Assembly: GCA_963170055.1 (NCBI GenBank) | Contig: CAUJGJ010000444.1 | Span: 6,923,618 to 6,987,617, forward strand | DNA length: 64,000 bases | Direction of reading: 5' to 3' | Source of the DNA: Halisarca cf. caerulea | Lineage: Eukaryota; Porifera; Demospongiae; Chondrillida; Halisarcidae | Shown: piece after piece, positions 2,887 through 50,780 of the stretch | Layout of the letters: the number at the start of each line of letters is the position of its first letter | Position numbering within the stretch: the first letter of the stretch is position 1 | The notes under the pieces: model-generated | Told to the model about the DNA's origin: nothing | What the model saw: only the letters and a program-made list of their open reading frames with translations | The model's database searches: none | Translations under genes and position numbers: made by a program

Positions 2887-3130
2887 CATATATAAGAATC
2901 ACTGACAGCTCTTGAGTCAAAGTTACAATATACAAAGTGACCTGTTAGCAACAGGTAACCAATAGCAACATCTTAGCAACAAGAATTGACCAATCACATC
3001 TCACATAGTACTTATATAAGAATCACTGACAGCTCCTGAGTCATAGTGGCAATATACAAAGTGACCTGTTAGCAACATGTAACCAATAGGAACAACATCA
3101 TGTTAGCAACAAGAATTGACCAATCACATA
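2887..3130. repeat. Tandem duplication, 2 x about 123 bp
   Basis: Two direct copies offset by about 124 bp share TATAAGAATCACTGACAGCT, the segment with AAGTGACCTGTTAGCAACA, and TTAGCAACAAGAATTGACCA. They differ by scattered substitutions and a few small indels, so the duplication is not recent. No open frame spans it. Confidence 0.85.
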
Positions 3131-3571
3131 AACAGGGTTAACCAGAGGAACGTACTGAGGTGAAATAAGTCATATATCAGTCATGCAACACACAAGAGTG
3201 TCAATAAGCACTCTTGTAATAATTTGTAGGTGATAATGTGTTTGTGAATGCTGGGTTTTGTGGTCTCCTGGTCAAGTTGAAGATATTACACACATGGGCC
3301 TGATGCCATCATGCATGAGTTTGTATTATAATTTTTGGTACCTTATTCTATATTTTATTGTAATGGAAAGAGTCTCTAAATACTCTGAGCTAGTCTCGTA
3401 CTCACACCATCACTCAGCTGTCACATTATACTGCCCTTGCTGATAATATGGCAGAGACTACACCAAAATCTTTGCCTGGGGGGTGAACTGCATTTCCAAC
3501 AATTAGTAACCTTACTGATTACAAAGTGTGTTCATGAAAGTGTAGTCTATTTAGGTAGGAAAAGGCGGAAT

Positions 3572-5017
3572 ATGCCTCAAAAGGGCATGTTTGATACTTA
3601 CATAAGTACTAACCAGCAAAATATAACTATAGCCCCAACCAGAGGTAGTGAACTCGGCAAGCGACAAACAATGGAGCAGCAAAGCAGTGCAAAAAGGGCC
3701 AAAGCCACAGTCATCAATGATACTGATGAAAGGATTGAAGCTAAAAAAGTTACCAGTATAATATACGATGTATATGTTAAGTACAGCAGTACATTTTCAA
3801 TATATGTGGATGCATATACATACAATATGTTCATTTGCAGACCCTGCCTGACATTCACAGCATACTAACAGTCAATTGCATAGACCTCCAATATCTCGAC
3901 TTCTGTGAAAAGTAGATGGCACCTTCGTTGCAAAGCTGCGGCGGACACAGCTGGAAGACGATCCAACAGCTCCAGGTACACATGTGTATGTTTCAGAGTG
4001 TCTCAGACACATACATACATTACACTGCATGCAAAGGTGTGCCACCACTGGCTCTCCTTTGTGTGGGTAAAGAAGGGACACATGAGTTTAAAGATATATA
4101 CAAAGATGTCTACAAATATGAAGTACTGGGAGGACTGCACAGTGTAACAACAAGAAAACAAATCTTGAGTGATGATCCAGGTATGTAAGCATGCAGTGAT
4201 GGTACACGTGCATACAATTTTCATGTACTACTTTAAACTTCAAATAGAACTGTGAGTACATACTGTTGACTATTTGTACACAGGCAATGTGTACTTCAAA
4301 ACAGACAAGGCCATCGTCTATTGTGGCCTCACTGATGAGGAAGCCTTGGGAGTGGCTGCAAGGCACAACACAACTGGCCATTTTCACCACTCGCTAATTC
4401 ATCTGGACTATGTGAGCTATACACATATATGCATGCATGTCTTCATAATTGTAATCATTACAAAAGATGAGTGCTGCAGTCCTTTGTATTATACAGTAAC
4501 ACATCCCATGACTGCACGTCTACGCATAACAATGTCTAGGTATAAACCTACGTACTAGTCTCAATGAAAATTGTGACACTACTTCAATAATTCACTCAAT
4601 TTCCAAGAATCACAATGATATACAGCTGGAGACATGCCGGACAAGGCTATACGAAATGGCATGTTAGACAACTTTCTGGGTCAACTCCTCATGCTAGAAA
4701 AGAATGGAAGCAGGCATGTAGGAACTGTATCACAAAGGTGAGTAGCTATGTCATGCACTAAAGCACAACAACTGACCATGCACCCTCATTCAAAGATTCA
4801 TTTCATTGGCATCACATAATATGCAGGCCATGAAGAAGACACAACGAGAAAATATCCTAAATCAGGCCTCATTCAGCAAACCAGTGTGGGATTTGTTTGA
4901 ACAGCTGGCAATGCAACATGCTTTCAACAGTTTGAAGGGCAGCAAACCTGGCGAGGCCAAAGACACATCAAGCAATGCCACCTGGCCCAACTACATCACT
5001 TGCCTGAAGCTTTCCAA
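3572..5017 (+). pseudogene. Multi-exon gene remnant with ParB/sulfiredoxin-like core
   Basis: Several blocks with GT...AG borders can be joined: a probable first exon (about 3572-3753, MPQKGMFDTYIS...), then 3841-3975, 4037-4180, 4284-4411, 4626-4737 and 4827-5017. The middle exons read VPPLALLCVGKEG, then YEVLGGLHSVTTRKQILSD, then IVYCGLTDEEALGVAARHN. This order (an 'is supplied' strand, a GGxHxxxAxxxL motif, then LTDEEAxxxxxxHN) is the layout of the ParB N-terminal/sulfiredoxin-like fold. I recall related uncharacterised proteins in cnidarians and sponges. Phases join correctly at 3975/4037 and 4180/4284. A frameshift lies near 3911, and the 4626-4737 exon holds stops in the phase that matches LETCRTRLYEMA, so this copy is probably dead. 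Function is unknown; a DNA-binding or transposon-linked role is only a guess. Confidence 0.55.
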
Positions 5018-5164
5018 GTATATAACTAAACTACATTGGATTATCCATTTCTAATATGTATGTACACAATAGTACGGAGATTGACAACCAGTAATTGTAC
5101 GTAGCATGTGAGTCTTCTAGTTACCCAATCCTAAGGTGCACACATAAAGGGAGTTTGAGTAAAA

Positions 5165-5953
5165 CAAGTAATTTGGGTAAAAAACCCCACAGGACTGCAG
5201 CCCCTCATCCCGAATTTCTTGAGATTATGTCCCGAATTACTTGCAAATATAACGGTTAATCTCTGCAACAATGGTATCAGGTTTACGAAGGGGCTTTATC
5301 CTTCAGCTTTGTATTTTTTTATTGCAATTATGAAGAAAATTCGCTGCATTTTGGCAGGGTTTCAGCCATGGTTTTTCTTGTTCTTATCAGAGTCTTCATA
5401 GGTTAACTCTAGATCTGTACTTGGGTTCTCTCACTGGATGGATGTTGCTTTGGATGGTAAAGTTCAAGCCATTGATTGTATCGACTATTATGTACTAATC
5501 AAGTCGATGTTGAAATAGAGCCAATTCTTCACTGTCAAAGGCTGGAAGTGGATCATGCACTAGCTGCCCTTGGCTGCCTGTGTACCTTTGGACTTGGGCT
5601 ATGCCTCATAGGGATAAACTTCAGTTTTGTACCCTCACACAGTACAGATGGATTGAACTTAGGTAGTGTTTGTACTGGAAAAGAGCATTGTGATCAAAGG
5701 GATATATTCCAGTAGTACGAAATCCAGATACCTCATTATTCATGGTCAAGCTGCGTATCCATGCTTTACTGAATAACTGGAAACTGCCAAAATGCAGCGA
5801 ATTGCAACAAAGGCAAAAAAAACAAAGCTAAAGAATAAAAACCATTCACAAACCTGATACCATTGTTGCGGAGATAAACCATTATAACATATTTGTAAGT
5901 AATTCAGGACGAGGGGCGGCAGCCCCACGGTTTTTTCACCCAAATTACTTGTT
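5165..5953. mobile_element. Non-autonomous element with long (about 190 bp) inverted repeats
   Basis: The left end (ACAAGTAATTTGGGTAAAAA) is the imperfect reverse complement of the right end (CACCCAAATTACTTGT). The similarity continues inward through CAACAATGGTATCAGGTTT and TTCGCTGCATTTTGGCAG, giving arms of roughly 190 bp around a centre of about 400 bp. The element carries no transposase. Flanks show no clear target duplication. It sits immediately left of a piggyBac fragment. Confidence 0.8.
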
Positions 5954-6104: not shown

Positions 6105-7426
6105 CACAGGCTCATTATAGCGCTTTTCGACTGGGGGAGAAAATGGCCGCCGCTCGAAATGGTAATATATACATCGAATTTTACAGCTCAAACAACAATG
6201 TACGTCGATTTTTACAACTGTTTAGTGTTTTAATGTTATTTATCGAAACAATAAACTACAAAACAGGCCCATGTGTCATACGCAGAAGTATAAAGATGAT
6301 TTTGAAAAAGGTACACTTTTTCTCTAAATGTTGATTTGGGGACGTGTAGATGGCCTCCCAAAGAGATGAAACTGGCATGAGATGAAAGAGTAAAGTTCAT
6401 TTAAGATATGGATGCTGAGCGGAGAACATATAACTCCAACTGAAATACTTATAACGAAAAATGTACTTTTAGCGGGTAAAAATGGCTAAAAATGACAATT
6501 AAAATGGTAATATCTTAGGCTAACCTGCTTATATAATCCCCGCTCAGCGAAAACAAGTATACAAAAGTATTTTAAATCGTTGGGTTCTTTTGTTGTTCAG
6601 AAAAAGTCCCGGGTACACGTCCCCAAAACACGATATATTTGCAGGACGGTTCCAATCCGCCATTTTAGGATGACGTAAGGTGCGCGTCATCAGTATTGGG
6701 CATTTAATTCGTATGGTACATTGGAAATAAGCGCCCTACAATGTTACCGACTACGTGAACAATCGATCTGGTCGGCAATTTGTTGTGCGGAAAGTTCTAT
6801 TTTTCATTTAATGGTTCCAACAAGTATCGGTGAGTTCTTATGCATATATTCTTTTCATTGATAGTCATATCTGCGGCGAAAGTGGCATACTTGACGACTA
6901 AGACTCAGAGACAGTGGCACTAGCTTGCGTGTGAAATCAATCGATTAGTACAAAGTCAGAAAGTAGACTGAGCATGCTAACATTTTGCCGATTTTAGCTA
7001 GTGTTTCATTCGTGATCTAGGATATCCTGGATAGCATAGTGCAGTTACCTGTCACAGCACTTTCTTACATTGATTCGGCCTTCTGCAACGATCATTCGAG
7101 GTGGGAAGGTCGATATCGGCGGTACCTGGCCCTTTTTGACGGTACTAGTGTAGCTTGAACATTGCTACTAAACATTGATGTGCTTCCACAAATACCTAAA
7201 CAAAACTTATCAAGGCACAAAACGGCTTTTTGCCTTGTCAAAGTCGATAAGATTCGAAAGATTCTGCTATCGCTAAACTACCGTTAGCGCCCGCTTCTGA
7301 TGACATATTACAACGTTTACCTTCTGCTGGTAATGACGTAGAGGTAAAATGTGACAAATTCCACAAATTCCATAACTTTGTCGCCTATAATCCCCAACTT
7401 CCACAAAGCGCTATAATGCCCCTGTG
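6105..7426. mobile_element. Element A, non-autonomous DNA transposon (CACAGG ends)
   Basis: The left end CACAGGCTCATTATAGCGCT mirrors the right end AGCGCTATAATGCCCCTGTG, giving an imperfect TIR of about 22 bp. The flanking dinucleotide CA occurs on both sides (6103-6104 and 7427-7428), which fits a 2-bp target duplication. An AAAATGGCCGCC motif lies about 35 bp inside the left end, and a TGACGTAA site lies at 6671 next to a reverse-strand copy of ATGGCGG. No long open frame is present. The element is homologous over most of its length to element B at 9653-10863. It splits a piggyBac pseudogene. Confidence 0.85.
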
Positions 7427-37686: not shown

Positions 37687-38873
37687 CGCATGTGGGACAT
37701 GTCCATAAACTTGGAATCTCAGTGGAGGCGCCTATTAGAAAGAATTTCGCGACTTTAGGTGGCTTCGCGATGCAATGTCATGTGACCAGCCCGTGACTTA
37801 GGAAAAATGTTGCTGTGCACGTAAAGATTCCAAAACAGCCTTACATGATGTTAAAACTGCAAGATCGACAATTGTTCCAGTCAGATGGCCTTCGGCTACA
37901 ATGAATCCTAGTCTCGTGTCTCCAGCCCCTTTCCATTGACGACATCATAAAAATTCTACAAAATCTCTAACAACATCAAGGAGAAAGAGGCTGGCTATGC
38001 GAAACTAAGTGAATCTTAAGCCTTCGATCAAATTTGAACATGTCAGTAACTTTCTGGTCTGGCTTACCTAGCTTAAGTTTCTTCGATCTTTTCTCCTTCC
38101 GAAAAACATCTTCGAAAGCGATTCGGTCCGTATACAAGTGTGACCAAAGCAGAATTTAAAGAGCTATCCGATGGCGAAAGGTTATGTATCAAAGATCAAA
38201 GGTACAAAAAAAGAAGAGACTTCGTCTGTATTCCACTTCACTTGCTACTTTACTCGACTTTTTACCAGTGCCCTTAGGTGACGTCACTTTCAATATCATG
38301 CGATGGTCATGTGACAAAATGGCTACCAGCTAGTTCTAGGCTAGTCAAAACTTTAATGGCTGGGCGGCAGTGGGAAAAAGCCCATTGGCATACTTGTTTG
38401 CATTTAGTGACTGTATTATAGGATAATAAATAACTTCCATGTTGGGGATTTTGATTCATTGCCCGATTCAGACGTTACAGGCAAAAAGGTAAGCTATCAT
38501 GGTTTGAATTTGTGGTTTTTACCATTTTTCTCTAAAACTCTTAGAGATATTTAGATCCCCAACATGGAAGTTTTAGATACTTAGGTAAGGAACCTATATG
38601 CCTACATTTGTGCCCTTAGCTTTGAAGCTGCACTGCCGCCCAGCCGTTTTTCATGTTTTTATATGTTCAGGGAGAATGCACATACATTCCTTAGAACTTA
38701 GAAAATTCTTTCAAGTTTGACATCGAACGAAAGGTAATGCAGCCATCTACACAATGGTACTAGTTGTTAGTTTTATTTCTTACATATTTGTAGTAAGAAA
38801 TAAAACTAAAAAGTGAAGATAAATTTCTGATCACTGAAGCCATACAAGTGCCAGTGGACATGTTCCACATGCG
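37687..38873. mobile_element. Element C, non-autonomous relative of element D
   Basis: The left end CGCATGTGGGACATGTCC mirrors the right end GGACATGTTCCACATGCG. CC is duplicated on the flanks (37685-37686 and 38874-38875; CCC is equally possible). Removing the element and one duplicate restores the gypsy reading frame ...FSTP-DGLFEF. Subterminal blocks are shared with element D: CGCCTATTAGAAAGAATTT on the left; on the right, the inverted pair AACTTCCATGTTGGGGAT / ATCCCCAACATGGAAGTT and the CTGCCGCCC-type inverted pair. It has one TGACGTCA site at 38279 and no long frame. Confidence 0.93.
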
Positions 38874-43850: not shown

Positions 43851-44541
43851 TGACAATGGTTTCCCATAATTACCAACAGCATGCATCTACATTGCTATGT
43901 ATGTACCTTCCTTTCCAGATTTTTACAAGAGATAACATATCATACTATGACTCTCTAAATACAACTGAATTCCCACACAAATTCATAAGTTTTACCACAG
44001 AATGGCTTCAAGACAGCAGATTCAACTTTTACACACTAGACAATAGCAATCTTGATACTGACACGTGGTTGTAATTGTTTACGTTGTTCTAGTAACGTCG
44101 TCACATGACAGGGTGATTTTTCCAACAATACCTAGGATTAATATTTGCGGGTTTGGAATGACTTGCGAAAAACGCGAAAAAAACCACCCGTGAAAATTTC
44201 TACCCTTACAGTATGATTTGGGCAGCTATAAACTTAAGCTCTTTTCGTTTCCTCCAGTCAGGAGAAATGTGCTGTCCCCCACCAATATCGTATGACTCCA
44301 CCCGCATGTGGAACATGTCCAAATCTTACCTAGGCGCTAATTAGAAAGAATTTGCGATCTGCTCGGGCTTCCATTCCGAATGTCATGTGAACTTCGCGTG
44401 ACTAATGAAAGACAGAGTGTGACGTCAGACATGAACACGGAAAGTATACGAGTACAAGCATAGTACAAGCACGTGGATGCCAGTGGACCTTAAGGATTTG
44501 GTGGTTTTGAAAAAAACCGTTTTGTTGAACCCTTCCCCCCT

Positions 44542-45009
44542 CTAGTCCGCCTCCTCTACGGTAAGGCTCTCGTCCTGCTGTGCTCCTGGTGGCCAGTGTA
44601 CAAACTGGCAGGAGGCCGTACTGCACCCCGGATGAAAGCGGCAAACGGTGTAAGGCCTACGTTTCCCCTCCAGTAAGTCTTCCGGCACATGCTGGAAGGG
44701 ACAGTTGCCCTTTTTCTGTCGCCGACAATCCTTCTGGAAGTGGCACAGACGGACTTTGGTGGATGGATCTGTAGCAAGAAACAAAAGGAATCAAGATCGT
44801 ATTCACTCTTCCACCCCGCGGATCCTTCGATCGTTCAACAAGAAAGCCTTACCACTGGGTTTCTCGGCCTTCCTTTTCTTCTGAGGCCGCTGTGGTGGAG
44901 AGGCTGGCCTCTTGTCCGTTGTCGTCGGCGCTGAAGATGGTCTTGGCTGCGGAGGTGGGGGTCCTTGCACCACACAGTTCAAAAAGAAAACAGAGCCGTT
45001 GAAGTTCAT
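44542..45009 (-). CDS. Two-exon CCCH zinc-finger protein within element D
   Basis: Exon 1 (starting at 45009) reads MNFNGSVFFLNCVVQ, a Pro-rich stretch and a basic segment PQRPQKKRKAEKPS that looks like a nuclear localisation signal. It ends at GT AAGG. The intron ends in a good pyrimidine tract and CTACAG. Exon 2 (from about 44771) reads DPSTKVRLCHFQKDCRRQKK with GNCPFQHV, then TVCRFHPGCSTASCQFVHWP and a stop at 44542. This gives two CCCH fingers, C-x5-C-x7-C-x3-H and C-x5-C-x4-C-x3-H, in a protein of about 130 residues. CCCH fingers commonly bind RNA. It could be a transposon accessory protein or a captured host exon. Both frames are intact. Confidence 0.65.
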
Positions 45010-45125
45010 TTTCGCAAGGTAAGAATGACTGTGTGGAGATCTTAGGTCCTTAAAAAGATTATTTTTCTTAAAGGTGTTAATGAGCGTCGTAATTCTATTG
45101 GTCTAAAGTTATCCTAGATCCTATC

Positions 45126-45545
45126 CAGTCTTGGTTCCATGTATGTACATGTTGGCTGCCTGTGTGTACTTCAGTCTTGGTTCCATGTATGTACATGTTG
45201 GCTGCCTGTGTGTACTTCAGTCTTGGTTCCATGTATGTACATGTTGGCTGCCTGTGTGTACTTCAGTCTTGGTTCCATGTATGTACATGTTGGCTGCCTG
45301 TGTGTACTTCAGTCTTGGTTCCATGTATGTACATGTTGGCTGCCTGTGTGTACTTCAGTCTTGGTTCCATGTATGTACATGTTGGCTGCCTGTGTGTACT
45401 TTAGTCTTGGTTCCATGTATGTACATGTTGGCTGCCTGTGTGTACTTCAGTCTTGGTTCCATGTATGTACATGTTGGCTGCCTGTGTGTACTTCAGTCTT
45501 GGTTCCATGTATGTACATGTTGGCTGCCTGTGTGTACTTCAGTCC
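45126..45545. repeat. 46-bp minisatellite, 9 units
   Basis: Nine nearly identical units of 46 bp begin CAGTCTTGGTTCCATGTATG, from 45126 to 45539, followed by a decayed part unit. Because 46 is not a multiple of three, the frames that stay open across it cycle and are artefacts. Very low divergence implies recent amplification or ongoing slippage. It lies inside element D. Confidence 0.97.
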
Positions 45546-46165
45546 TGGTTGGTGTATTCATGTTGGTCTGATTCTGGTTGTTTTGATGTTTATCTCCATC
45601 GTACTTTTACTACATGTATGTTGATCTCATCTATGCAGGAATATTGAAATTTTAGGACCGCAGCATGCAGCTAGGAAAGACTGTGTGTATTATTTAACTC
45701 CTTGATATTTTAATTTAGAATGTATTATTGTATTTTTTTATTGTTTTGCATTGCATGCTGTCATATATATATACATGCCAAATATATATAATAATTTACA
45801 TCAATTTCACTTGATTATTAATAGATGTACATTATTATAAGACTCGTGATCAGTAATAAGTACAAACTATTGTAAAATATATAAACTTAATACGCACAAT
45901 GTCACAAATAGGAGTTCTTGGTTGCAATCTGAATACTTGTCCACTTCGTCAAGCTCAACATGTACCTGCAACAAAAAGGAGGGCATTATTATATCAAGCA
46001 TGACGTTGTATATAACAGGCTATAAATATACACCCATCTCTGTACCAGCTACTGAATGTAGCTGGTTCCAGGACACAGGACGAGGACCTGTGGGTGTGGC
46101 GTGCCCCATAAGTGTACTATGTACCAACAGCAGTACTTTGTACACTTTTACACTATGTGCTACTG
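45546..46165. other. AT-rich non-coding part of element D
   Basis: About 620 bases with TATATATA segments and no gene. It separates the two minisatellites of element D. Confidence 0.5.
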
Positions 46166-46373
46166 TACAGCTACATTACAGACAAAGAGGTGTACTATGT
46201 GCCACCGCAGCACTTTGTACAGCTACATTACAGACAAAGAGGTGTACTATGTGCCACCGCAGCACTTTGTACAGCTACATTACAGACAAAGAGGTGTACT
46301 ATGTGCCACCGCAGCACTTTGTACAGCTACATTACAGACAAAGAGGTGTACTATGTGCCACCGCAGCACTTTG
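46166..46373. repeat. 52-bp minisatellite, 4 units
   Basis: Four units of 52 bp begin TACAGCTACATTACAGACAA and are almost identical. A partial diverged unit precedes them (from about 46115). The period is not a multiple of three. It lies just downstream of the 834-codon gene, where its missing C-terminal sequence would be expected. Confidence 0.95.
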
Positions 46374-46439
46374 TACAATCATTACATGTGTATGAACATA
46401 ATACACTACAAAGAACACCTTGTACAGGTTTTATACATT

Positions 46440-46709
46440 TTAATGCAAGTTGCAGATAAGTTTCAGGCAAAGCTTCAAGTCATGAGTACTTTGTACTGTG
46501 GTAGAAGGCTCTGGTACATCTGTGTCAAGAAGTTCTTCTAGGTTGGCCTTATGCTTACACACAAGCTTGCGGAAGTACCGAGCAAACTTCTTGTGTTTGT
46601 GTAGTTCACTAGGGAACTTAATGGCACTACTCTTAACAGAAGTCCTGACCTTGTCAAATTCTACCAATTCGGCTGAATGACCTAAAAGCTTAGCTAATGA
46701 CTTGCACAC
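46440..46709 (-). CDS. Possible 3' exon of the 834-codon gene
   Basis: An 89-codon frame reads SLAKLLGHSAELVEFDKVRT, SVKSSAIKFPSELHKHKKFA, RYFRKLVCKHKANLEELLDT and ends shortly after. It overlaps the end of the 834-codon frame in a different frame. A GTGAGT donor directly after HELQ and an in-phase AAG acceptor before GTCAGG at about 46638 would join them through a 75-base intron, but the acceptor has a poor pyrimidine tract. The joined C-terminus would not resemble the HGPVQHELVCSRSVNTE block of the 31.7 kb relative. Confidence 0.35.
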   Translation of the reverse strand: MCKSLAKLLGHSAELVEFDKVRTSVKSSAIKFPSELHKHKKFARYFRKLVCKHKANLEELLDTDVPEPSTTVQSTHDLKLCLKLICNLH

Positions 46710-49198
46710 AGTAGATGTAAACTCACTTGGAGTTCATGAATAAGGAATGCACAGTTGTAATACTGCAAGCATTGTTTAGGTGTGCGGTTCACATCAAGAC
46801 TGTACAAAATTCTGCTGATTTGTACCAAACATTCGACATATATTCGAACAGGGGCAGTCTCAGCTGTCTTGGCTCTCTTACCAAACACATAAGCAATCTC
46901 AATGAGAGCCTCTCGTAGGTCTGAGCCATACAAATGTGCCTTTTTCCACACAGACTCTAGGTACATAGACACTTCTTTTTTCAAGTCGCTTACAGGGATA
47001 ACAGAAGGCAACTTCTTCAGTACACTACCCAAATACCCCTTTAGGTCATGCAGTGGCTCAAAAGAAAGAACCTCATAGTCTTGAAGGTTCAGGTCAGACA
47101 ATGAACTCTCAGGAGAGAACATCAACAGTGATGGTACTCTCTGAACACCACTCAGAATACCTTTCAGTGCATCAGTCCTTCCCTTCTTAGTTGTTGGGTA
47201 GTCCTTTACACCCCTTGCCTCTAGTTCACGTCTCAGGTCATCTGTGCTGAGATCATCATAAAATTTGAGCACACCTGCCCTCTTCCCAAACTTGCCCTTC
47301 AGTGCTACTTCTTGATTGCTCTCCAAGGAACGCTGCTTACAAGAGGTTGCATGGGCAAAATCTGCAAATCGGGAGGCAGAGCAAATACAACCAACACATG
47401 GATATGTACCTCCACATGATATGCCAGCTTCGAACTCAGCAGCCGGCTTGTCACCCTTGAAGTACTTCAGTATATCAAACACGTTCACTCCACCAGCTGC
47501 ACACAAAGGCTCCTCCAGCCCATCCAGCTCAGCCAGTCTTTCTGGGATGATGCAAGCCTGGTCAGCAAGTGAGGAGCTTCCATGGGCAATAAAGTGAATC
47601 TCCCCTTCTTCAACGTACTCTTGTACTCCTGGAGACTCAGACTCAGACAAAAAAAGTACAGGATTATAAACAACACCAACCATTACAGCAATGATTCCAT
47701 GTGAGGCCAAACTAGAATGATCATGCCAAACCCACAGAGAACGTCTTCTTTCATACTGAGCAAGAAGTACTCTCAGTTCTTCTGTGGATTTGGCACTTAC
47801 ATCAACACATGGCATTGCTTTGAAAATGGTTACCATGACACCCCGACTCATAGTAGCAATTTCACTATCAGTGTGCAATCGCATCATCTTTTGATGACTG
47901 TCAAGTAAACGCTTACGAATATCTGCCAGGGTAAATTTGCGGCTATGGGCCTCTATGATTTTTGTTTCACCTTTGACTCTTCTTTTAATTGCCACAGGAA
48001 CACATGGTATACCAGTTTGCAGCTCCCCATTTTCAACCATTGCTGCATCTATAGTTGACAAAGTTTTCTTGTTAGGAGGTGCAGGCATTGCAACATTGGT
48101 CCCATCAAACTTCCTCTTGGTAGATTTAGGTTTAGGCTGAATTTGCAAACCAGGAATAGCTGGATTTACCTCTAAAGCAAGAAGTTTCAATTTATGCCCT
48201 CTATCTGAACCATTGACACCAAATTCATCAGCTATGGCAGTGGCTTTGAATGAAAGAGAACTATCCCAATTCTTTAAGAAAGCAACAAGCTCATCAAATC
48301 TTGCACATTCGTGGGGTTTCACTGAATAACGCTTCTTCGTCTTTTCAGAAACTTTGGGCGGTATATAGCATTGTGATTTTCTGATAGAATCTATTTTGCT
48401 CAAACTAATGTCATTAACGTATGCCGCCTTCAAAGTGTTCTTTCGCAAAGATTCATTGCATTTTTGAGTAAACTGTTTTTGGGTATCTGCAATGGCATGA
48501 TTTACTTCAGCATCAGTATCTCTGAGGCCTAGCTCGTGGGGGTACCGGTTTGCTAAGTTTTCAAAGGCCTGCCCAGTTCTCTCTCGGCATAGACGGTTGA
48601 AGTCCTGAAACTCATTCTCAATGAAAGACTTAACAGAAGTTCGATCGTCTTTTTCAATCATGAACACAGGTTTCAATGGGAATGACTTCTGTTCCTTGCA
48701 AAACGCCCGTGCACAAGCTCGACAATTAGACAGAGAATGGGCAGCCCTTTCATTTACTGATAACTTATCCCAATTTTTGGAGGAAAAAGTGGTCAAGTAC
48801 TTAGAACGCAAGGTAGTATCAGTTCTAGGAATAAATTTTTGGGACCACGACTTCAAAAGCACTCCCACATGACGTTCAAACTTGGAAATTCGCCCTTGGC
48901 TCGAATCGAAATAATCTTCCCCCAAAGAAAATCGAGGGCCTTGGAATCGGAGTTTGAACTGGTCACTGAAACACGTTGACCCGGGAGATTGATTACCTGA
49001 CGTACCTGTTTGATTCTTTGTTTTCGGGGAGGTATCCGTCTTCTGTCCCTCGGTATTTGCCTTCTTTCCCGAATTTGAAGATTCACGATCCTCCCAGCTC
49101 TTCAAATAGGTTTCGTACACAAGAGTGCGGCAAAAGCCACAGTTGAAAAGAGTACCGACTTTCTCTGTGAAAGGCATGACTGCTTCAAATGACAACAA
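46694..49198 (-). CDS. 834-residue putative transposase of element D (SAP and Cys/His domains)
   Basis: A single open frame of 834 codons starts at 49198, about 730 bp inside the right end of element D. The N-terminus has CGFC (20-23), a low-complexity linker rich in Ser, Thr and Lys, then a Cys/His patch (CRACARAFC). The middle third holds HGSSSLADQ and WHDHS near 491-495, inside LWVWHDHSSLASHGIIAVMV. A Cys cluster follows (C at 595, CVGCIC 601-606, HATSC 616-620), then a SAP-type segment (650-682, LRRELEARGVKDYPTT) and EPLHDL near 714. SAP motifs bind AT-rich DNA. Similar uncharacterised proteins occur in cnidarians and sponges. I do not recognise a named transposase superfamily, and no DDE triad is obvious. 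Its candidacy rests on the terminal repeats and on the degraded relative at 29-32 kb. The last 10 residues read through a GTGAGT donor, so the true C-terminus may differ. Confidence 0.75.
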   Translation of the reverse strand: MLSFEAVMPFTEKVGTLFNCGFCRTLVYETYLKSWEDRESSNSGKKANTEGQKTDTSPKTKNQTGTSGNQSPGSTCFSDQFKLRFQGPRFSLGEDYFDSSQGRISKFERHVGVLLKSWSQKFIPRTDTTLRSKYLTTFSSKNWDKLSVNERAAHSLSNCRACARAFCKEQKSFPLKPVFMIEKDDRTSVKSFIENEFQDFNRLCRERTGQAFENLANRYPHELGLRDTDAEVNHAIADTQKQFTQKCNESLRKNTLKAAYVNDISLSKIDSIRKSQCYIPPKVSEKTKKRYSVKPHECARFDELVAFLKNWDSSLSFKATAIADEFGVNGSDRGHKLKLLALEVNPAIPGLQIQPKPKSTKRKFDGTNVAMPAPPNKKTLSTIDAAMVENGELQTGIPCVPVAIKRRVKGETKIIEAHSRKFTLADIRKRLLDSHQKMMRLHTDSEIATMSRGVMVTIFKAMPCVDVSAKSTEELRVLLAQYERRRSLWVWHDHSSLASHGIIAVMVGVVYNPVLFLSESESPGVQEYVEEGEIHFIAHGSSSLADQACIIPERLAELDGLEEPLCAAGGVNVFDILKYFKGDKPAAEFEAGISCGGTYPCVGCICSASRFADFAHATSCKQRSLESNQEVALKGKFGKRAGVLKFYDDLSTDDLRRELEARGVKDYPTTKKGRTDALKGILSGVQRVPSLLMFSPESSLSDLNLQDYEVLSFEPLHDLKGYLGSVLKKLPSVIPVSDLKKEVSMYLESVWKKAHLYGSDLREALIEIAYVFGKRAKTAETAPVRIYVECLVQISRILYSLDVNRTPKQCLQYYNCAFLIHELQVSLHLLCASH

Positions 49199-49934
49199 TC
49201 AAAAAGGCTTCACGTCTGTTTGTCAGTACAGCGACTGTTGACAATAAACAGCGATATAGGTATCACCATAGATCTATGGTATCACGTACGTATACGGAAA
49301 TGACTTCCCACTTGGATCGCAAGCCTTGTCTATGACGTCACATCCAGGTCACGCTCAAGTCATGTGAAAAATGGCCTCCCAAGGCTTTGTGGACATGTCC
49401 ATGCTGAAATGGTCGGGCGGCACTGACATAGCCCCGGAACGGCTGTGTTTTCTACTTTGTTTTAACATTTTTCGCATAATACAACTTTTCCATGTTGGGG
49501 ATTTCAATTCTCGCTAGTTTTCCAAAGTTACCAATCAAAAAGTGAGTCTAGATTGTGTTAACTGTACATTTTTGGTAACTTTCTTGAAAAGTGAGTGGAG
49601 TAATGAAATCCCCAACATGGAAGTTTTAGGTATAGTCATGAAGATTATATTAAAGCTTTTCTCTGGTGTATGGTGCATTTACTACGCTGCCGCCCGGCCA
49701 ATTTGTGCCGTTTTACAAGGTAACAAAAACGTGCCTGCCGATCGCTGCTAAAACGAGCAATGATTACAAATAAGGTATCAAATGAAAGCCAATATGTTGT
49801 TCCACAACCCTATATATGAATTGTAGGCATACGCATCGCCTGTAAGAGAAGAGAGAAAGAAAAACAAGGGTGAAAATATTTTTTTGGCGAAGCCATTAAA
49901 GTGCAAACGGACATGTTCCACATGCGCCTGGCAT

Positions 49935-50108
49935 ATAGCCATAGACGAGCCTCAGGACACCCAGGTATTGTTTGCCACTATTGAAGGCTCCAAAACTGAC
50001 CCATTTCGCTTTGCGGTCACCATTGCCATGGGAGTAACCTCAGATGTCTTTTGCCCCATTAAAGCAATGCTCCCCTACTTAGCACTACGTCAGGATCAAT
50101 TGCTGAAT
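49935..50108 (+). pseudogene. Tyrosine recombinase fragment
   Basis: The frame reads QVLFATIEGSKTDPFRFAVT then IAMGVTSDVFCPIKAMLPYL with ALRQ. The pattern SKTDPFRxGVxxxIGxT...CPVxAxLxYLxxR is typical of tyrosine recombinases of DIRS/Ngaro or Crypton-like elements in invertebrates. The catalytic Arg, His and Tyr motifs lie outside this short piece. It is cut at the left by element D, and on the right it passes in the same frame into a HADNC-family sequence, so the junction is an old insertion or fusion. Confidence 0.55.
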
Positions 50109-50780
50109 CCCATGCCAGGTCTAATGCCCAAATTTAATGACAGCAAGGTTCTCTTGCTACCAACAGTTTTGACCAAGGCAAAAGTGTACAGGGATTATGA
50201 AACTCTTTGTGGCAATACTCATGAGACACCTGTGGCCGAACAAAGTTCTACAATGTTTGGAGAGCTAAACTAGGCCATTTGTTGTAACCATGAAGCCTGC
50301 ATATGATCTTTGTTTCGACTGCCAGAAGCTAACTACTGCTCTCAGCAACTCGGAACATCTATCAGATGATGAAAGGCAGCCAGGTTGACCAACTACACTG
50401 ATCACCTGTCCTTGGCAAAGCAAGCAAGAGCAGAGTACAACCAGCCACATGTCATGAGGCCTACAACTCTTCAACTGTTGGGGAAGATGTACCAATGCAC
50501 TACTCGCATGATTTTGCACAGCAGGTGCACTTTCCCAACAACCCACTGCAACCAGGACCTGCCTACTTTTTGACTGCTCGGAAGTGTCAGATATTTGGTG
50601 TGGCATGCGAGCCACTTGGATGGCAAGTGAACTACCTCATTGATGAAGCAGATGTAGTTCATCACTTTTTTGAGGCAAGGGCTGAGAAGGGCAAAGAAGT
50701 GTACTTGCATGCAGACAACTGTGTCGGCCAGAACAAGAATAATGCCACCATGCAGTATTTGGCCTGGAGGGGGTCCTCAC
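50109..50780 (+). pseudogene. HADNC/DUF7869-family protein remnant
   Basis: Reads MPKFNDSKVLLLPTVLTKAK with VYRDYETLCGN. After stops it continues with a CxxC-like piece (CFDCQKL), then HYSHDFAQQVHFPNNPLQPG with PAYFLTARKCQIFGVACEPL, DEADVVHHFFEARAEKGKEV and LHADNCVGQNKNNATMQYLA. It aligns block for block with the copies at 21.4 kb and 27.2 kb. It is broken by several stops and ends right after QYLAWRG. Confidence 0.65.

Follow-up and report, generated by a model that had tools for sequence, protein, structure and literature searches.

A two-gene DNA transposon family from the sponge Halisarca cf. caerulea with a transposase of predicted RAG1-like fold

Element D and its ends

The window analyzed here, a 64,000-nucleotide stretch of the Halisarca cf. 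caerulea assembly (C412:6923618-6987617), contains a DNA transposon, element D (44303-49926), that carries a transposase gene and a small second gene on one strand. An earlier note, made from the letters of the window, had described D as a candidate autonomous DNA transposon with an unassigned protein; its nature as a DNA transposon holds. In window coordinates, D and its borders comprise:

44301-44302, no strand: left target site duplication (TSD), CC; single CC at the empty sites L098 and L099
44303-44320, forward: left terminal inverted repeat (TIR), CGCATGTGGAACATGTCC, from sequence comparison
44542-44768, reverse: second gene, exon 2, with two CCCH zinc fingers and the stop codon at its end
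44769-44852, reverse: second-gene intron of 84 bp, GT...AG, inferred from sequence
44853-45009, reverse: second gene, exon 1, Met at 45009; Pro-rich, with basic KKRKAEK
45126-45550, no strand: minisatellite, 46-bp unit, 9.2 copies
46164-46377, no strand: minisatellite, 52-bp unit, 4.1 copies
46440-46733, reverse: C-terminal remnant of the transposase with its true C-terminus (alignment), a 97-residue frame in another frame than the main one
46694-49198, reverse: transposase open frame, 834 codons, first Met at 49177; carries D493, D583, C601/C604 and LH716-717
46725-46740, reverse: internal-deletion junction; compared with P0018, 298 residues are gone, the candidate catalytic Glu and H(4)H among them
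49407-49703, no strand: two nested subterminal palindromes (49407-49422/49688-49703 and 49488-49512/49598-49622)
49909-49926, reverse: right TIR, a copy of CGCATGTGGAACATGTCC, from sequence comparison
49927-49928, no strand: right TSD, CC, from flank comparison and empty sites

The TIRs are perfect over 18 bp, as first described. With 3 or fewer mismatches allowed, the window has four matches to them, whereas 100 shuffles averaged 0.05. Across the 194.5 Mb of genome searched, their first 9 bp, CGCATGTGG, occur at 845 + 880 sites, compared with 185 + 192 for the same letters reversed. Many of the sites listed form pairs spaced about 720 or 1165 bp apart, so that D stands at the head of a family of short nonautonomous elements. 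One of its relatives, element C (37687-38873, no strand, TSD CC), lies inside a Ty3/gypsy-like reverse transcriptase. The ends of C are those of D with one mismatch on the left, and identity between the two elements is 71.7% over the first 119 bp and 86.8% over the last 38 bp. The subterminal palindromes already noted as common to both were recovered as two nested, similar pairs in each.

The CC on both flanks, also recorded earlier, is a 2-bp TSD of no fixed sequence. Checking the ends across genomic copies, as the earlier note had proposed, we counted neighboring convergent TIR pairs of D type with up to 4 mismatches in the loci retrieved: 16 of 17 are flanked by an identical dinucleotide (TT, TA, CA, TC, GC, TG, or CC) and none of the 17 by an identical trinucleotide. 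Copies whose two ends fell in separate loci have TSDs of AT, TG, and TA (three with a transposase match) and TG (a large element without a listed transposase match). Of removals of 0 to 5 bp tried on the joined flanks of element C, that of 2 bp alone restores KTAFSTPDGLFEFNVMPFG, and two near-identical genomic loci (L098, L099) that correspond to empty sites of D have one CC across the junction.

The transposase, its partner gene, and their clades

The 834-codon frame was correctly delimited in the earlier note, although the 2.5-kb gene is not nearly intact, as was claimed there. The longest homologs found with this frame are of 1127-1282 residues. One close relative, P0018, matches 16% of the 834-residue query at 96% identity and has 298 C-terminal residues that D lacks; in the alignment the D transposase stops at HELQVSL and restarts out of frame at TPSEFTSTVCKSL. 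The H(4)H pair and the candidate catalytic Glu lie in the missing segment, so D cannot move itself and is not autonomous.

Transposase genes of this family scored at no fewer than 57 places in the genome, with several stop-free frames of 1202-1362 residues. A 3471-residue open frame at one relative was rejected as a polyprotein, being a stop-free simple repeat beside a frameshifted gene. All four other coding copies that have a transposase match and both ends covered carry TIRs of the D type, with no more than one mismatch at either end, and a 2-bp TSD, so the gene belongs to the transposon, as originally proposed. It is extremely unlikely that this is instead a host gene picked up by unrelated CGCATGTGG elements as a passive passenger. 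Such a view would suit the inability of D to be active, as well as the mosaic element L058 (C369:11649465-11657513; 8049 bp, 1220-residue frame, TSD TA), whose second-gene arm is 94.7% identical to D in DNA and whose transposase is 68% identical in protein. It is contradicted by the joint occurrence of gene and TIRs in the four copies besides D, by clades that hold the orthologous gene between different ends, and by the predicted RAG1 fold and conserved triad described below. Purifying selection on the transposase shows in the aligned codons, the ratio of nonsynonymous to synonymous substitution rates being 0.149 for D against L058 (synonymous rate 1.5) and 0.121, 0.237, and 0.166 for other pairs; a fifth pair was saturated.

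The second gene, overlooked in the first reading, lies downstream of the transposase and encodes 127 residues in two exons. Its intron keeps GT and AG in all copies that cover each (L045 stops short of the AG). Pieces of the gene in seven other copies are 91-96% identical to that of D (L044, L046, and L058 being one element), an eighth match at L047 is partial (72.6% over 296 bp), and L048 has a stop in exon 2. Counterparts are present in three clades of the family, with transposase identities of 30-38%. L059 has a CCCH finger downstream of its transposase, and is the only case in which Pfam recognizes a second-gene protein above the cut-off (PF00642); the tandem CCCH pair of L075, from the third clade, is 35% identical to that of D over 71 residues (E 6e-11 in a single comparison). 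This retention across clades argues for a real partner of the transposase, to judge from sequence. Its task, at a guess, would be RNA or DNA binding.

A relative with a frame of 1362 residues is 38-41% identical to the D protein; its element, about 6.78 kb long, has TIRs CGCAGGTATGTTATGTCC / CGCAGGTAAGTTATGTCC and, in L059, TSD AC. A second locus, L060, is 99.96% identical to it over 6780 bp, and third and fourth loci show 100% identity across compared stretches of 1459 and 1512 bp; the flanks differ among all of them. Such very recent copies make experiments possible.

A third, sister clade (L063-L065) is 30-31% identical to D and has ends CACAGG..CCTGTG, whose 21-bp pattern occurs at 98 + 98 sites, against 0 + 0 for the control. 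Ten CACAGG pairs were picked by hand among the first 100 listed places, and each has a 2-bp TSD. So has the pair in the window, a nonautonomous element of third-clade type (6105-7426, no strand, CACAGG...CCTGTG, TSD CA); with the coding L063 element as the exception, this makes 11 of 12 in all. At L094/L095 (C40:1055700-1057021) a CACAGG element is inserted in the apparent TIR of another copy. In L055, L063, and L064 of this clade the transposase frame lies behind a 2A-type motif (CGDVETNPGP, SGDIEINPGP), located 108-123 residues past the last stop or the sequence start and in frame with the conserved N-terminus NCGFAR. 2A-type motifs are known from retrotransposons.

Beyond the sponge, relatives of the family occur in amphioxus and many other assemblies; the 74 homologous proteins include an uncharacterized amphioxus protein, LOC144885158. 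A peptide pattern hit 18 stretches on viral contigs; tblastn found no relative encoded in any of them.

Catalytic motifs, predicted fold, and relationship to known lineages

RAG1 builds antibody genes and has a transposon as its ancestor; the wider group to which it belongs is known chiefly through Transib, RAGL, and CACTA-type elements. In the family alignment the motif order D-D-C(2)C-LH-H(4)H-E is conserved, with C(2)C and H(4)H placed between D and E. The Cys residues are present in 66 of 66 and 67 of 67 rows, each His in 65 of 66, Asp in 66 of 67, and Glu in 66 of 66. Spacing from the second D to C is 18 and from H to E is 19, the corresponding values in RAG1 being 19 and 20. The D and E residues of the motif would be catalytic, the likelier triad consisting of D493 (WHDH), D583 (FKGD), and the Glu of EERxF, which is deleted in D. 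An acidic triad had been suggested at the WHDHS and SSLADQ blocks; the former supplies D493, whereas the Asp of SSLADQ, though conserved in 61 of 67 rows, lies outside the likelier triad.

The closest solved structures to the structure predicted for a relative, P0017 (not for D), are RAG1, BbRAGL, and HzTransib, and the transposase is predicted to have a RAG1-like fold. Structural alignment to RAG1 gives about 12% identity. No transposase model was reached in a Pfam profile search of the D protein, or above the cut-off by any of 16 different transposase proteins of the family, where one SAP domain was found and the rest was sub-threshold. To that extent the earlier note was right that the protein belongs to no recognizable transposase superfamily; the statement is too strong in that predicted structure and signature residues point to the RAG1/Transib/CMC class. 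The SAP-type segment it had described was confirmed in the family (P0055, E 3.8e-10, above the cut-off); D itself gives a sub-threshold Ish1 match only. PDB sequence searches identified no transposase: one was empty, and the other returned a SAP domain (E 0.012) and myoglobins, matches that were taken as chance. The RAG1 family of Pfam matched nowhere, controls included, and is uninformative.

Very likely, D derives by internal deletion from a cut-and-paste DNA transposon that has two genes and a DDE enzyme of the RAG1/Transib/CMC structural class. Several observations sit poorly with this interpretation. The Foldseek TM-scores are moderate (0.23-0.31 of query, 0.47-0.57 of target), and a first AlphaFold2 model, from 23 sequences, was too poor to use (pLDDT 56.3, pTM 0.44). 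Six EnSpm-type (Transposase_21) proteins from this genome gave no significant profile-profile score, whether at full length (21.6, P 0.34) or for the core, which scored 20.6 (P 0.1) in the wrong register, with 16.0 and 16.5 when one side was reversed. Fold and motifs are therefore what the link to CMC depends on. The empty sites of D are only 71-72% identical to its flanks and, 4 bp to the right of the junction, contain an additional 15 bases. A clean TSD is lacking at L028 (the one of 17 end pairs), at L060, where the last base is changed, and, for the third clade, at the coding L063 element. Under a looser TIR rule (up to 5 mismatches) 15 of 17 pairs have a 2-bp TSD, L028 failing together with L019, a loose match that falls short of the 4-mismatch cut-off.

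In the proposed mechanism, a complete transposase of about 1200 residues would bind the TIRs and perhaps the subterminal palindromes, helped by its SAP and N-terminal regions, with one zinc probably held between CxxC and HxxxxH. It would cut both strands at the outer TIR edge by a nick-and-hairpin route, which is known for RAG1, and insert the ends into the target at a stagger of 2 bp; the small tandem-CCCH protein is a putative accessory factor. D and the short element C would move only with enzyme from another copy, D having lost the Glu and the zinc-binding His pair.

Origin from a Transib/RAGL transposon with changed ends is very improbable. The closest solved structures would favor it, and RAG1/RAGL (ProtoRAG) offers the best fold match, the same D-D-CxxC-HxxxxH-E order, similar spacing, and a two-gene transposon. 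However, TSDs are 5 bp in RAG1/RAGL and Transib and 2 bp here; the ends of D's clade are CGCATG rather than the CAC of Transib; and the partner encodes tandem CCCH fingers and lies in tandem with the transposase, whereas that of RAGL is a convergent RAG2-like gene. The low identity to RAG1 and the PDB searches, which gave no transposase, also count against such an origin; nor is there a sequence-level match to Transib. Tc1/mariner was set aside since the TSD is not only TA, and hAT, piggyBac, and Harbinger likewise on their TSDs.

EnSpm/CACTA elements have TSDs of 2-3 bp, which the 2 bp found here fit, and by eye the family shares DxPA...G...CxxC, (L/M)H, and E-R-x motifs with EnSpm proteins of the same genome. 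It is plausible, if less than probable, that the family is a divergent branch, absent from Pfam, of a CMC lineage already catalogued (EnSpm/CACTA, Chapaev, Mirage), and that Repbase may list it under one of these names. The TSD length agrees with this, as do the C(2)C, LH, and H(4)H motifs, which are those reported for Chapaev in PMC4079192, and the CAC...GTG ends of the third clade. The same text gives Chapaev TSDs of 3-4 bp, invariable CAC/GTG ends, and a Chapaev3 example transposase of 556 residues; here TSDs are 2 bp, D ends in CGCATG, and the transposase is about twice as long. EnSpm has a 3-bp TSD and CAC..GTG ends according to PMC12730594, and D begins with CGCATGTGG instead. The 16 family proteins lack a Pfam transposase model above the cut-off, and genome matches to PF02992 (Transposase_21, EnSpm; 45 places) and PF06918 (Chapaev; 4) never fall on the family's 57 places. 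According to PMC3985635, PF06918 (DUF1280) represents Chapaev and PF06869 (DUF1258) Mirage; the latter had no match in Pfam scans of family proteins, its presence in the library being unconfirmed.

The CMCT definition (PMC12730594) combines motifs, fold, TSD length, and CA..TG ends with exceptions allowed. The family shows the motifs, predicted fold (P0017), and TSD length; CA..TG ends are seen in the third clade, whereas D has CG..CG. By this definition it is a transposon of CMCT type. Among CMCT lineages named by Kojima 2025 in the same text, Plavaka, ESTA, and Lanisha share the clade-level motifs, and the TSD of PlavakaA is 2 bp; D differs from the Plavaka ends given there, TGT..ACA (PlavakaA) or CATCA..TGATG, and the ESTA TSD is TA. 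The family departs from Chapaev, Transib/RAGL, EnSpm, and Plavaka in defining features tested and is matched to no named lineage. Titles and abstracts in literature searches included none describing such a transposon family. Judged by Pfam models, these titles and abstracts, and published descriptions of named lineages, it is apparently an undescribed two-gene CMCT lineage. There is about an even chance that it is an undescribed RAG1-fold lineage of superfamily level, distinguished by particular ends (CGCA..ATGTCC or CACAGG), TSDs that are 2 bp long and free in sequence, a SAP segment inside the catalytic region, and a tandem-CCCH protein as dedicated partner. It would then represent a two-gene arrangement independent of that of the RAG1-RAG2 transposon, and the second of its kind. 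A lineage of this type would illustrate how recognition of ends, stagger, and partner proteins can differ around a shared catalytic core.

Genomic neighborhood

Contigs C369 and C412 together make up 22.9 of the 194.5 Mb and are strikingly transposon-rich, with 47 of the 57 listed places of the transposase family (42 and 5, respectively) and 31 of the 45 Transposase_21 places (21 and 10). By eye, D lies in an apparent coding remnant of a tyrosine recombinase (Crypton/DIRS-like; window 49927-50273), relatives of which are found at C83 and C290. Just outside D, at window 51668 on the forward strand, a 2A motif (CGDVERNPGP) is followed by a cysteine-rich stretch, by eye probably a non-LTR retrotransposon. 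At L057, a 727-codon open frame (3056-5239, forward) has the look of a hAT-type transposase by eye.

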